Both the position numbers and the translations under genes were made by a program. Under the pieces are notes generated by a model. It had not been told where the DNA came from. It did no database searches and worked only from the letters and a program-made list of their open reading frames with translations. From contig PFOG01000202.1 of the NCBI GenBank assembly GCA_002792395.1, positions 1 to 6,630 on the forward strand: a stretch of DNA of 6,630 nt, read 5' to 3'. This document shows, one piece after another, positions 3,754 through 6,630 of this stretch. The number at the start of each line of letters is the position of its first letter. The stretch's first letter is position 1. The DNA comes from Candidatus Portnoybacteria bacterium CG_4_10_14_0_2_um_filter_44_20 (lineage in GTDB: Bacteria; Patescibacteriota; Minisyncoccia; Portnoybacterales; GCA-002795985).

Positions 3754-3825
3754 TTTTTATTGATTGTCGTCGGAAGCAGTTGATTAAAATTTCAATAACC
3801 AAGCCAGAAGCGCTCCGGAAAATAA

Positions 3826-3928
3826 CCAATAACCAAATCAGAATACCGAACAAATATCCAAATCTGAATATCCAAGCAATTAATTAAATATTAGGAATTT
3901 TTTCGGGATTCGGGCTTGTGAATTGGCC
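3826..3928 (-). repeat. Palindromic element E1, intergenic copy
   Basis: Read on the minus strand, this 103-base element begins GGCCAATTCACAAGCCCGAA and ends GATTTGGTTATTGG. Its two halves are imperfect inverted repeats, sharing CCAAT, GAATnCCGAA and an A-rich run ending in CC, so it can fold into a long hairpin. By eye it matches the copy inside rsmA (4575-4679) at about 29 of 36 positions at one end and 27 of 34 at the other, with similar spacing between. A further arm-like stretch (CAATAACCAAGCCAGAA) at 3793-3809 suggests a decayed or nested additional arm. The element occupies the middle of the 252-base rsmA-to-thrombospondin-repeat spacer. The rest of that spacer (3754-3792 and 3929-4005) shows no ORF, promoter or terminator that I can support. 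Confidence 0.7.
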
Positions 3929-4005
3929 CTTTGGTTCGCGTGAGGATTATGTAAATTCGGTCCAACGGGAGAAATAATTGTGACAAATTCGCCCGATTAC
4001 TTAGA

Positions 4006-4998
4006 TTATACTATATTTTCAACAATCAATACAGTTAAAATCCGCCAGTTATCCACAGTTAGTTCTTCGGCTCGTTGGGTGGGTTTTAGCTGAACCTTTT
4101 CAAGAAAGTTCTCTATTTTTTGCCGAGAGATTTTTAATTCTGTGGATAAGTTATTAGCTAGTTGTTTTCTTGGGTGTGAGAAGCCGGCGTGGACAATTTT
4201 AAAAAAGTGGTCGCGGAAAGTGTTTTTGTATTTTTTTTCTAATTGTGAGATTGGGAAAGCGAGGGGACTCGGCGTTATTTTAATAATTGCCGAATCGACT
4301 TCTGGTTGTGGCCAGAAAGATTCTCTCGAAACATAGGAGATGATTTTCGGCGCGGCATAAAATTGAACAGAGACGGAAAGCAGAGACATGCGCGGCGGAC
4401 TTGCCCGCCTAAATTTTTGTCCTGCAAAAATTTTGGCGGGTGAAGCGCAGATTCTTTGGGCCACTTCTTTTTGGATCATCAGGGTCATTGACTGCGGCGG
4501 ATTATCTGATTCTAATAATTTACGAATAAGCGGCGAGGTTAAGTAGTAGGGAATGTTAGCGATTACTTTATAATGGCCAATACCTAAACCAGAATCCCGA
4601 AAAAAATCCCAAGCCCCAATGTCTAATTTTTGGGGATTGATTGTTGGGTATTTTTTCTGGATTCGGACTTGGTCATTGGGAATTAGTTTCAGGATGTCGC
4701 CTTGTGTGATTTCCACGTTTTCAATTTTATTCTCAGCTAAAATCTTTTTAAGAGCCTCGACCATCCTTTTGTCTTTTTCAACGGCAATAACTTTTTTTAC
4801 GCGCCGGGCCAGTTCAATAGTCAGAATTCCTAATCCTGGCCCGATTTCTAGTACGATATCGTTTGCCGATAAATCAGAAGCTCCGATAATTTTGTAAAGA
4901 ACCTTTTGACTGATCAAAAAGTTCTGCCCTAGTTTTTTTGAGGGACGGAAATGATATTTTTGGAGAAATTTTGATTGTGTGTTTCGTTTCTCGCGCAT
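4006..4998 (-). CDS. rsmA: 16S rRNA (adenine1518/1519-N6)-dimethyltransferase RsmA
   Basis: RsmA (KsgA) transfers four methyl groups from S-adenosylmethionine to two adjacent adenines near the 3' end of 16S rRNA, a late checkpoint of small-subunit assembly in the cytoplasm. The motifs are in order: GQNFL (24-28), the SAM-binding glycine loop EIGPGLGILT (51-60), the ribose-contacting acidic residue in AVEKD (72-76), GDIL (100-103), the catalytic NIPYY (148-152), and FWPQPEVDSAIIKI (228-241). The C-terminal helical domain includes SHPRKQLANNLS (274-285). The 330 residues exceed the usual 260-290. The surplus is explained by two in-frame palindromic repeats: one encodes residues 108-142, between GDIL and NIPYY, the other residues 187-199, between QKEVAQRICA and MSLLSVSVQFY. 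The frame stays open and every key residue is kept, so the enzyme is probably active. The gene starts at ATG 4996-4998 without a Shine-Dalgarno sequence, 118 bases after the helicase gene. Confidence 0.96.
   Translation of the reverse strand: MREKRNTQSKFLQKYHFRPSKKLGQNFLISQKVLYKIIGASDLSANDIVLEIGPGLGILTIELARRVKKVIAVEKDKRMVEALKKILAENKIENVEITQGDILKLIPNDQVRIQKKYPTINPQKLDIGAWDFFRDSGLGIGHYKVIANIPYYLTSPLIRKLLESDNPPQSMTLMIQKEVAQRICASPAKIFAGQKFRRASPPRMSLLSVSVQFYAAPKIISYVSRESFWPQPEVDSAIIKITPSPLAFPISQLEKKYKNTFRDHFFKIVHAGFSHPRKQLANNLSTELKISRQKIENFLEKVQLKPTQRAEELTVDNWRILTVLIVENIV
4404..4440 (+). repeat. Palindromic element E2, hairpin inside rsmA
   Basis: The left arm CCCGCCTAAATTTTTG (4404-4419) and right arm CAAAAATTTTGGCGGG (4425-4440) pair over 16 bases with one mismatch around the 5-base loop TCCTG. 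On the coding strand it supplies residues 187-199 of RsmA (PAKIFAGQKFRRA). These sit between the flanking CAS and SPPRMS, where relatives run straight through with a short loop. The local protein excess over typical RsmA is about 12 residues, matching the hairpin. A G+C-rich base with an A+T-rich stem and tight loop is very unusual for coding sequence and points to an inserted repeat rather than drift. Confidence 0.75.
4575..4679 (+). repeat. Palindromic element E1, in-frame copy inside rsmA
   Basis: This 105-base element is exactly 35 codons long. It starts GGCCAATACCTAAACCAG and ends GGACTTGGTCATTGG. Its halves are inverted repeats: CCAAT, ACC, GAATCC, GAAAAAA and CCC recur in the same order on the opposite strand, and an inner CCCCAA...TTGGGG pair extends the stem. 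It resembles the intergenic element at 3826-3928 in length, termini and internal motifs. On the rsmA strand it encodes about residues 108-142, a segment rich in Gly, Asp, Ile and Trp lying between the conserved GDIL and NIPYY motifs. From memory, E. coli and B. subtilis RsmA have roughly 20-28 residues between these landmarks, against about 47 here. Confidence 0.75.
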
Positions 4999-5000
4999 GC

Positions 5001-5052
5001 GATTAATCTAACTAATGCTTAGCTAAGAATTATTCTAATCGATTAAGAATAA
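5001..5052 (-). repeat. TTAGAATAATT-family repeat, diverged copy D
   Basis: The minus strand reads TTATTCTTAATCGATTAG followed by AATAATTCTTAGC and later GTTAGATTAATC, a rearranged relative of copies A-C. It contains a 23-base near-palindrome at 5030-5052 and the perfect 10-base palindrome CTTAGCTAAG at 5018-5027. It lies just upstream of the rsmA start and faces copy B in inverted orientation across a short GC-richer spacer. Similarity to the family is weaker than for A-C, so membership is tentative. Confidence 0.4.
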
Positions 5053-5065
5053 CCCGCCTTTTGGC

Positions 5066-5117
5066 TTAGGATTTATTTAGAATAATTAGAGCAATTAAAA
5101 ACAATTAGAATAATTTT
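5066..5117 (+). repeat. TTAGAATAATT-family dispersed repeat, copy B
   Basis: This 52-base AT-rich sequence begins TTAGGATTTATTTAGAATAA and ends AATTAGAATAATTTT. It matches copy A at 2266-2316 nearly throughout. Its last base is the first plus-strand base of the helicase stop codon, so the repeat starts exactly where the helicase gene ends. With copy D it forms a roughly 115-base inverted-repeat block that fills the helicase-rsmA spacer. No T-tract-associated GC stem typical of a rho-independent terminator is present. Confidence 0.7.
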
Positions 5118-6630
5118 CATGAATAATCTTCGGGCGGAGTTTCACAAAACTCCTGCCCACTTAGGTATTTATCGGAAGAATGGCGCACTAACACTATATT
5201 TTCCGATATTTCCGATAAAAAGCGCGAAGGCGGATTTGTTATCAGCGAGCCAAAAAACAACCTCTTTTCGGCAAAGGATAGATAAAGCAGATTTTTAGCC
5301 CGCGTCATGCCGACATAACATAGGCGGCGTTCTTCCTCCGTCTGAGTTTTGTCTAGCAAGCTTTTGCTGTGGGGGAAAATTCCTTCTTCGCACCCGACAA
5401 CGAAGACCGCGGAAAACTCCAAACCCTTGGCACAATGGATGGTCATTAAATTAACCAGATTTTTTTCTGTTTCCACTTCGTCAGAATTTTGAAGGAGCGC
5501 CGCTTCTTCCAAAAAAGCGCCTAACCCGTCGGGCGGAGGGAGGGCGTCAAATTTTTGAGTTACAGAAAAAATTTCTTCGATGTTCTCCAGGCGCGCCTCT
5601 CCATTTTCCTGCCCGAGAATATAGTCTTCATATTTTGTTTTTTCAATGATTAATTTAAGAAGTCCGGTTAGGGGCAGGGCTTTGTTTTCTTGGCGCAGTT
5701 CGTCGAGAAGATTGTTAAAGTTTTCCCAGGCTTGAAGTTTTTTTAAGATCGGCCTTTGGTTGGCGGTTGGCGGTTGGCGCAAGCCGCGCGGCGGCACATT
5801 GATAATTCTTTCCAGAGAGAGTAGGTCATTGGGATTGTGGATAATTCTTAGGTAGGCTAGTAGGTCTTTGATCTCTTTTCGGTCGTAGAACTTGGTTGCG
5901 CCGACAACTTTGTAGGGTAGGCCGACTCGCAAAAAAGCTTCTTCGACGGCGCGTGATTGAGCGTTGGTCCGATAAAGAACCGCAAAGTCGGAAAGCCTGA
6001 GTTTAAATTCGGCAATAAGTTTCCTTATTTCGCTAACAATAAATTTCCCTTCGTCTTTTTCGTTCAGGGCTTCGTAAAGCACGATTGGCGCGCCGGTTGG
6101 GTTATTGGTCCAGAGGTTTTTATCTTTTCTTTCGAGATTTTTGCTGATGACTTGGGCGGCGGCGGCCAGAATATTTTGCGTGGAACGATAATTTTCTTCC
6201 AGGACAATGACTCTGCAGTCAGGGTGTTCGTGTTCGAAGTTCAGAATGTTTCTGAAGTCGGCGCCGCGCCATTTGTAGATGGACTGATCGAAATCTCCGA
6301 CGACGAAAATGTTTTTATGCTTTTCGCTTAGTAGGCTGATGAGAGCGTACTGGGCAAAATTTGTGTCTTGGTATTCGTCAACTAGAATATATTGCCAGCG
6401 TTTTTGGTATTTTTCCAGGACCGAAGGAGTGTTTTTAAGCAGCAAAACAACTTGCATTAGGAGGTCGTCAAAATCAAAGGCGTTGTTGTTTTTTAGTTTG
6501 TCTTGATATACCATGTATATCCTAGCCGTTGTTTCTTCGTAGTAGCTGGTTGCCTGTGCGGCGTATTCTTTCGGCTCTGAGAGGTTATTCTTTGCTGAAG
6601 AGATGGTCTCTTGAATTGAGCGGGGCTTGA
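5117..6630 (-). CDS. uvrD: UvrD/PcrA-type superfamily 1A DNA helicase, N-terminus off window
   Basis: This is an ATP-dependent 3'-5' DNA helicase of the UvrD/PcrA family, acting in repair and replication-fork maintenance. The frame is open to the window edge, giving 503 residues; about 150 N-terminal residues with Walker A are outside. The ATG at 6512-6514 is internal, because the upstream residues (KPRSIQETISSAKNNL) align with PcrA. Counting from the first full codon, motifs are FDFDDLL (about 51-57), Walker B LVDEYQDTN (82-90), motif III GDFDQSIYKWRGAD (111-124), LEENYRST (143-150), YRTNAQSR (219-226), FYDRKEIKDLLAYLR (247-261), motif V TIHCAKGLEF (396-405), and motif VI RRLCYVGMTRA (434-444). 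The C-terminus ends about 35 residues after PPSRFL, so the Tudor-like C-terminal domain of Gram-positive PcrA is absent. The 2B-domain GIG motif expected after INVPPRG is replaced by a Pro/Gln-rich insert encoded by a heptamer repeat. It stops with TGA. Confidence 0.95.
   Translation of the reverse strand, partial: KPRSIQETISSAKNNLSEPKEYAAQATSYYEETTARIYMVYQDKLKNNNAFDFDDLLMQVVLLLKNTPSVLEKYQKRWQYILVDEYQDTNFAQYALISLLSEKHKNIFVVGDFDQSIYKWRGADFRNILNFEHEHPDCRVIVLEENYRSTQNILAAAAQVISKNLERKDKNLWTNNPTGAPIVLYEALNEKDEGKFIVSEIRKLIAEFKLRLSDFAVLYRTNAQSRAVEEAFLRVGLPYKVVGATKFYDRKEIKDLLAYLRIIHNPNDLLSLERIINVPPRGLRQPPTANQRPILKKLQAWENFNNLLDELRQENKALPLTGLLKLIIEKTKYEDYILGQENGEARLENIEEIFSVTQKFDALPPPDGLGAFLEEAALLQNSDEVETEKNLVNLMTIHCAKGLEFSAVFVVGCEEGIFPHSKSLLDKTQTEEERRLCYVGMTRAKNLLYLSFAEKRLFFGSLITNPPSRFLSEISENIVLVRHSSDKYLSGQEFCETPPEDYS
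5758..5778 (+). repeat. Three tandem GGTTGGC heptamers within the helicase gene
   Basis: GGTTGGC occurs three times without a mismatch, followed by GC. On the coding strand it gives CGCCAACCGCCAACC and encodes part of RQPPTANQRP, at the point where PcrA and UvrD have the Gly-Ile-Gly DNA-contact motif. Twenty-one bases preserve the frame, whereas gain or loss of one or two units would shift it. Confidence 0.85.

Follow-up and report, generated by a model that had tools for sequence, protein, structure and literature searches.

A palindromic repeat inserted in frame in rsmA of a Patescibacteria-type genome and its likeness to S23 cassettes

In a Patescibacteria-type draft genome, the gene for RsmA, a conserved ribosomal-RNA methylase, carries a 105-bp segment that we confirm to be a real in-gene palindromic insertion. 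This segment is probably an in-frame copy of a dispersed palindromic repeat with S23-cassette-like arms, likely an internally deleted (MITE-like) cassette for which we predict mobilization in trans by copies that encode S23. Drawn from sequence comparison, the evidence consists of the insert itself, short-loop and replaced alleles (as proteins), other copies of the element, the match of its arms to S23 flanks, and two characteristic spacings of these arms.

Results

The insert in rsmA

The window, meaning the whole 6,630-nt stretch of DNA that was analysed, is contig C185 of a draft genome of 1.02 Mb in 219 contigs, whose sequences find their nearest named homologues in Candidatus Portnoybacteria and other Patescibacteria. 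On its minus strand, rsmA (ksgA) occupies 4006-4998 and encodes a protein of 330 aa, which scores 210.7 bits with TIGR00755 (cut-off 171) and matches PF00398 at E 4.9e-49. A sequence-only reading of the window had proposed a 105-bp in-frame palindrome here, between the GDIL and NIPYY motifs, and both points are borne out. The insert length is a multiple of 3, the insert covers residues 108-142 and lies, in codon phase, at 4573-4677 on the minus strand (4575-4679 in the earlier reading), and it is flanked by GDILK and YKVIANIPYY. A 116-nt stretch around it folds at -37.4 kcal/mol (z -3.56) into a long imperfect hairpin, which 0 of 200 shuffles equalled. The palindrome arms were delimited with R1, a sequence-only covariance model of 21 distinct S23 flanks. 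Arm 1 lies at 4568-4626 on the plus strand (18.9 bits; E 5e-6 in the window, 7.5e-4 in the own genome), and the inverted arm 2 at 4623-4687 on the minus strand (13.7 bits; E 2.1e-4 and 1.2e-3, respectively). Two of the six frames are open in this copy. From its hairpin, its alleles among homologues and its arm matches, we class the insert as an ORF-less S23-type palindrome.

The predicted RsmA structure has a mean pLDDT of 81.6. Values below 50 are confined to the N-terminus (residues 1-5) and three insert sites, namely 110-120 and 122-136 (site A, the insert described here), 189-197 (site B) and 247-249 (site C). Residues 108-142, which had been singled out for a structural check, are a low-confidence loop, and by prediction the insert protrudes as a disordered segment from an otherwise intact RsmA core.

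A second in-frame palindrome, unrelated to the first, is found at 4404-4440 on the minus strand (about residues 187-199, PAKIFAGQKFRRA; inverted repeat, z -3.63); it is missing from the RsmA homologues P0004 and P0008. Neither this palindrome nor the S23 cassette at 2268-2747 of the same window figured in the sequence-only reading. An Rfam scan of the window returned four matches at E≤1, all under their gathering scores. One of these is a weak match to RF03531 (n00280) inside a helicase gene at 5265-5363 on the minus strand, with 36 bits against a gathering score of 65.2.

Other copies in the genome

A noncoding element nearby had been noted for its resemblance to the rsmA segment, and the alignment agrees: 3826-3931 is 72% identical over 108 query nt to the rsmA element (BLAST query 4570-4685; own-genome E 1.6e-8). 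This intergenic relative, for which no strand was assigned, carries both arms and extends over 3820-3931 (R1, 14.5 and 14.4 bits); folded with its flanks (181 nt), it shows no significant structure (z -0.03). The genome search for further copies yielded, besides the spacer copy, C195:5851-5949 (E 8.6e-9), located directly after the stop codon of aspS. The own genome therefore holds 3 strong BLAST copies, including that in rsmA.

Arm hits are more numerous. At E≤0.1, R1 gave 50 hits in the own genome, forming 15 convergent pairs and 0 pairs in any other orientation; these counts are lower bounds, because scoring was limited to 150 of the 774 candidates. We inspected 30 of the arm hits and counted, by hand, 24 elements; only 3 of the 24 sit 60 nt or more within a long gene (rsmA, lepA and the gene for a prepilin peptidase). 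Several others overlap just the end of a longer frame, and frames of 103-133 aa spanning three other arm hits were not counted as genes. In addition, 8 of 10 elements tested have stops in all six frames. The suggestion that the family as a whole is coding-tolerant is not upheld by these numbers.

The prepilin peptidase gene (L250, on G000 C11; PF06750, PF01478) contains a single S23-type arm in frame, and lepA (L269; PF00009, PF06421) contains an S23-type arm in frame followed by a piece of a second repeat. The prepilin peptidase also has a further long low-complexity stretch of repeat-like appearance, KKNSILLPSDEGRHPKGGG...PPPAPSSTEEGAGR, before its CPHC stretch.

Alleles of the insert in RsmA homologues

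Alleles were compared at the protein level among 120 listed RsmA homologues. The sequence-only reading had proposed aligning rsmA from close relatives for presence or absence of the segment, and such differences are seen among the proteins. Homologue P0008, with a core identity of 201/255 (79%), has a 10-residue loop at the insert site. The core of P0003 is identical to that of the window (256/256) and that of P0002 nearly so (255/256), and in both proteins a different repeat (...SFPRKRESRKFSGAMDSRES.ND...) takes the place of the middle of the element, whose start (LIPNDQ) and part of whose end are kept; P0003 has one extra piece. In P0005 and P0006 the element is present with another repeat nested inside, and P0004 has the element.

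These alleles bear on whether the segment could be a normal, lineage-specific RsmA surface loop that was inherited vertically and is only incidentally palindromic. Three more distant homologues, P0010, P0011 and P0013 (56-58% core identity), do carry a similar peptide at the same place, as such a loop would predict. However, the loop is short or refilled in the closer relatives P0008 and P0003, the other copies of the element sit in spacers, and a core tree of 120 rows (the fragment P0012 omitted) requires at least 24 changes between long and short loops, 14 of them forced by well-supported branches. On the same tree, the S23-like state, marked by hand-made peptide patterns that were also used for the LepA loops, changes at least 8 times, 6 of these forced. 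The inserts of P0011 and P0013 also agree at 35 of 38 residues, against 186 of 247 in the core, as would be expected if the insert postdates their split or was exchanged. We regard vertical inheritance of an ordinary loop as highly improbable.

S23 cassettes and the arm match

S23/IVP is the protein of 23S-rRNA intervening sequences. The window itself encodes an S23/IVP four-helix-bundle protein of 125 aa at 2331-2708 on the minus strand (PF05635, 51.1 bits; TIGR02436, 72.8 bits). Inverted arms at 2268-2296 and 2719-2747 (29 nt, 90% complementary) enclose this gene in a cassette that spans 2268-2747 on the minus strand. A stretch of the cassette (2285-2316) is 97% complementary over 32 nt to 5066-5097, inside an ORF-less palindrome at 5028-5115 (without assigned strand) that shares this arm and has ends of its own (5028-5044 and 5099-5115).

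S23 genes were found in 31 of the 38 genomes searched, the own genome included, where there are 4 matches. Flank scoring covered 67 of 71 loci (L149, L190 and L194 were left out; L128 has a short flank). The best inverted match between the two flanks of a locus has a median score of 22, compared with 9 for flanks of different loci, and 28 of the 67 loci exceed the 95th percentile of this control, which is a strict one because it consists of S23 flanks itself.

BLAST of the rsmA element in the 23 genomes of the order gave only five short matches beyond the own genome, and flank profiles were therefore used. An HMM was built from 22 AAT-type 5' flanks of S23 genes in other genomes (two of the 22 represent one locus); since the AAT-type arms were picked by eye among the 67 scored loci, other arm types are not represented. 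Searched against the window and locus L002, its top 7 hits comprise both arms of three elements, namely that in rsmA (18.9 and 10.3 bits), the 3826 copy (13.9 and 10.3) and the L002 copy (17.9 and 11.1), together with the upstream arm of the window's own S23 cassette (12.1 bits with this foreign profile in an unfiltered search; R1 does not list it). The eighth hit scores 1.9 bits. R1 likewise recovers the arms of the rsmA and 3826 copies.

All 23 genomes of the order have R1 arm hits at E≤5. The arms are short and AT-rich, and it could be argued that the insert is an RPE-like coding repeat (RPE, Rickettsia palindromic element) spread by another route, independent of S23, whose arms resemble S23 flanks through a shared AT-rich heptad composition. 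In-frame palindromes in conserved genes are indeed the signature of RPEs (PMC10969869), and clearly different repeats occupy the same loops (see below). R1 lists no arm at E≤2 for any of the four S23 genes found here, and among their flanks only that of the window's S23 gene scores, in the unfiltered HMM search, so that parents with matching arms are known only from other genomes; this weakens the S23-cassette reading and strengthens an origin independent of S23. Against the latter, the best HMM hit in 100 dinucleotide-shuffled windows reached 8.4 bits, compared with 10.3-18.9 bits for the arms. Shared composition also sits poorly with the strictly convergent orientation of the own-genome pairs, and a second flank model (R2), built from the flanks of GxxExxY genes, gives no hit in the window. 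Spread independent of S23 appears unlikely to us, although we rate it the likeliest of the alternatives.

Two spacings of the arms

Arm pairing was surveyed over 234 loci (905 kb). In 42 loci with hits, none of them among the 22 named S23 loci, short gaps (-30 to 110 nt) gave 25 convergent pairs (24 distinct elements), and the other orientations had 3, 2 and 1. At gaps of 300-400 nt, convergent pairs numbered 17 and those of the other orientations 1, 1 and 0; every one of the 17 belongs to an S23 locus. These wide-gap pairs come from loci chosen for S23, whose 5' arms, but not 3' arms, trained the model. An ORF of 122-144 aa lies between the arms in 12 of 16 listed rows with gaps of 319-366 nt, two loci being listed twice. 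In the loci surveyed, the arms thus have two arrangements: a distance of about 320-370 bp with an S23 gene between them, or near-contact with no such gene. This pattern is expected of parent cassettes and gene-less miniatures. Given the arm match, the convergent pairing and the two spacings, the best reading of the insert is a MITE-like form of an S23 cassette that lacks the ORF.

REPIN/RAYT systems consist of miniature palindromes that depend on a trans-acting gene, and a REP/REPIN-type miniature moved by a Y1 (RAYT) transposase was considered as well. The rsmA element is likewise a miniature palindrome, and Y1_Tnp genes occur in 15 of the 23 genomes of the order, with 3 matches in the own genome. 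However, in none of 12 Y1 loci (of 24 matched stretches) is the transposase gene bracketed by convergent rsmA-type arms with a gap of up to 700 nt; the only one of the 12 with arm pairs is L231, where they lie away from the transposase. Movement by a Y1 transposase is therefore very unlikely.

Reverse transcriptase genes (PF00078) are present in 13 of the 23 genomes of the order, with one partial match over the cut-off in the own genome. Some low-scoring S23 matches adjoin reverse transcriptase genes and appear to be Avd genes of diversity-generating retroelements; for this reason, reverse transcriptase was set aside as the mover.

The RsmA loop as a recurrent target

We compared 110 RsmA loci, 106 of them distinct (L040, L044, L045 and L054 are copies of others). 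Three sites vary: site A (this insert), site B (after QRICA) and site C (before FFK..AGF). Site A has a median length of 12 residues in the 110 loci and exceeds 20 residues in 14 distinct loci. Among 26 long stretches at sites A-C, 18 fold with z below -2, and 16 fall under the 5th percentile (z -3.0) set by 151 background windows from the same genes (L040 and L044 were left out of this test; L045 and L054 have no long stretch). As sets, the long stretches and the background windows differ with a Mann-Whitney p of 2.9e-9, with stretch lengths and shuffle numbers also differing between the sets. The remaining 8 stretches, including the window's own site C, are not below z -2, and one background window reached z -9.7.

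At L012, one repeat fills both site A and site C (91% over 99 nt); at L011, the inserts at the two sites are strong palindromes (z -13.3 and -10.2); and the site A insert of L019 matches the site C insert of L015 (88% over 81 nt). A second rsmA, in genome G012, has S23-type arms at the same site A (27.0 and 13.7 bits). In other genera, the same RsmA loop is filled by several unrelated repeats.

Some further observations concern these loops. The short site A loops of P0044, P0063, P0064 and others can be read as tandem arm remnants (YNLKPKTYNLKPKT, IQDTRYKIQDT, IENCKLKIENC), and many loops may therefore be element debris. In two other genomes, an S23 gene lies about 130 nt or less from the rsmA match (L015/L182 on G006 C16; L026/L176 on G019 C55). 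A spacer stretch of the window, 93-207, carries GTCATCCTGAGCGATAGCGAAAGATCTC and GAGATTCTTCACTGCGTTCAGAATGAC at its two ends, and we take it to resemble a repeat that is widespread in bacteria. HPERSEGS-like peptides, which a repeat of this type could encode, occur in the RsmA and LepA loops of relatives.

LepA, GxxExxY cassettes and other genes

Where lepA L269 carries its arm, the loop is short in the LepA homologues P0122 (85% identity) and P0124, and it reaches at least 20 residues in 45 of 120 homologues. In P0132, a LepA known solely from the predicted product of a contig of about 6 kb, this loop, which has palindromic repeats elsewhere, is 166 residues long and holds a complete GxxExxY domain in frame (PF13366, E 4.9e-32; TIGR04256, E 1.9e-33).

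Stand-alone GxxExxY genes gave 29 matches in 13 of the 23 genomes. These genes (L279-L307) have inverted flanks of TACGAAT-like units, with a median score of 24 compared with 10 for the control, and 28 of the 29 loci exceed the control's 95th percentile. No S23-type arm hit was found within 260 nt of the GxxExxY gene in any of the 29 loci. The own genome has at least 9 R2 sites at E≤1 (150 of 454 candidates scored), including one convergent pair on C129.

A search with another, different repeat, from rsmA of genome G020, found it in 15 of the 23 genomes, with 6 matches in the own genome. Of 30 copies examined, ten lie in open frames, one being the query's own copy. Nine of these frames are genes by Pfam or by RsmA identity: rsmA twice and genes for a Mur ligase, an O-antigen ligase, two glycosyltransferases, an Mfd-like helicase, RNase HII and TrmD. 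The tenth is a 121-aa candidate (L215). Other conserved genes (those of LepA, TrmD and RNase HII) thus hold unrelated repeats as the RsmA loop does.

Discussion

The known precedent for palindromes within genes is the RPE (Ogata 2000/2002, cited in PMC10969869). The features in common are a similar palindrome size, many copies, some of them in frame in conserved genes, and several families per genome. The rsmA element, with 105 bp and a hairpin z of -3.56, falls within the range of about 100-150 bp for RPE palindromic repeats, and it lies in frame in a conserved gene with copies in spacers and single arms in lepA and the prepilin peptidase gene. In contrast to RPEs, the host is a Patescibacteria-type draft genome rather than Rickettsia, the arms match S23 cassettes, most inspected copies lie outside genes, and one loop has been hit by several unrelated families. 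An NCBIfam scan of the insert at E≤10 returned 0 families, from a library that may or may not hold RPE models. The RPE-like interpretation given in the sequence-only reading thus stands in part: a dispersed palindrome did enter a conserved gene in frame, but the match of its arms to S23 cassettes and the unrelated repeats in the same loop were missing from that account. We would call the rsmA element RPE-like in behavior, by analogy rather than by demonstrated sequence kinship.

The intervening sequences (IVS) of 23S rRNA, whose transcripts RNase III cuts out, offer a second comparison. They share with the present elements an S23 ORF within an element bounded by inverted repeats and insertion into loops of a conserved molecule, and an early proposal is cited in PMC4990558 of a mobile element whose ORF encodes a component for its mobility. 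The inverted terminal arms of the rsmA copy match the flanks of S23 genes of other genomes. Unlike an IVS, however, the rsmA copy has no S23 ORF (the 2268-2747 cassette has one) and is sited in a protein gene rather than in 23S rRNA. Like MITEs, for example the QMITEs (PMC5896051), the element is short, has inverted ends, lacks an ORF and has ORF-bearing relatives with like ends. Those partners were seen in other genomes, and, unlike in MITEs, the partner ORF is S23 and not a recognized transposase.

We propose that the short copies arose through loss of the S23 gene. The S23 protein would recognize the heptad-like arms, and a folded arm-loop nucleic acid may be the mobile form. The folded arms could then serve as the substrate of S23, both in its own cassette and, in trans, in gene-less copies, which would land mostly outside genes. 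Within genes, only stop-free copies that keep the frame would survive, in loops dispensable for folding, and the survivors might subsequently be eroded, replaced or nested. We infer S23 as the mover from sequence relationships, and we know of no transposase activity of S23.

A broader proposal is offered tentatively, and we would place it somewhat short of probable. Patescibacteria may possess a class of palindromic mobile cassettes in which inverted arrays of 7-8-nt units surround one small gene, either for S23 or for a GxxExxY PD-(D/E)XK nuclease, and whose miniatures, lacking that gene, insert in frame into the loops of conserved genes. The intervening sequences of 23S rRNA and the coding palindromes would then be two outcomes of a single mobile class, and the LepA with a whole GxxExxY domain might be a parent caught in the act.

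To our knowledge, no source has been identified for the in-frame palindromes described in protein genes of Rickettsia. Here, both ends of an in-gene palindrome match cassettes of an identifiable gene, S23. Among the papers listed in searches of the open-access PMC literature, we found no report that links in-gene palindromic repeats of Patescibacteria, CPR or Parcubacteria with S23/IVS or GxxExxY. The link between the insert arms and S23 cassettes is the new and testable part of this work. Because RsmA proteins with identical cores differ in the filling of the loop, the process can be dated and tested. The old proposal of S23 as a mobility component, as cited in PMC4990558, would gain a testable setting outside rRNA, and the element would help to explain the strong variation in loop length among conserved enzymes of these bacteria.
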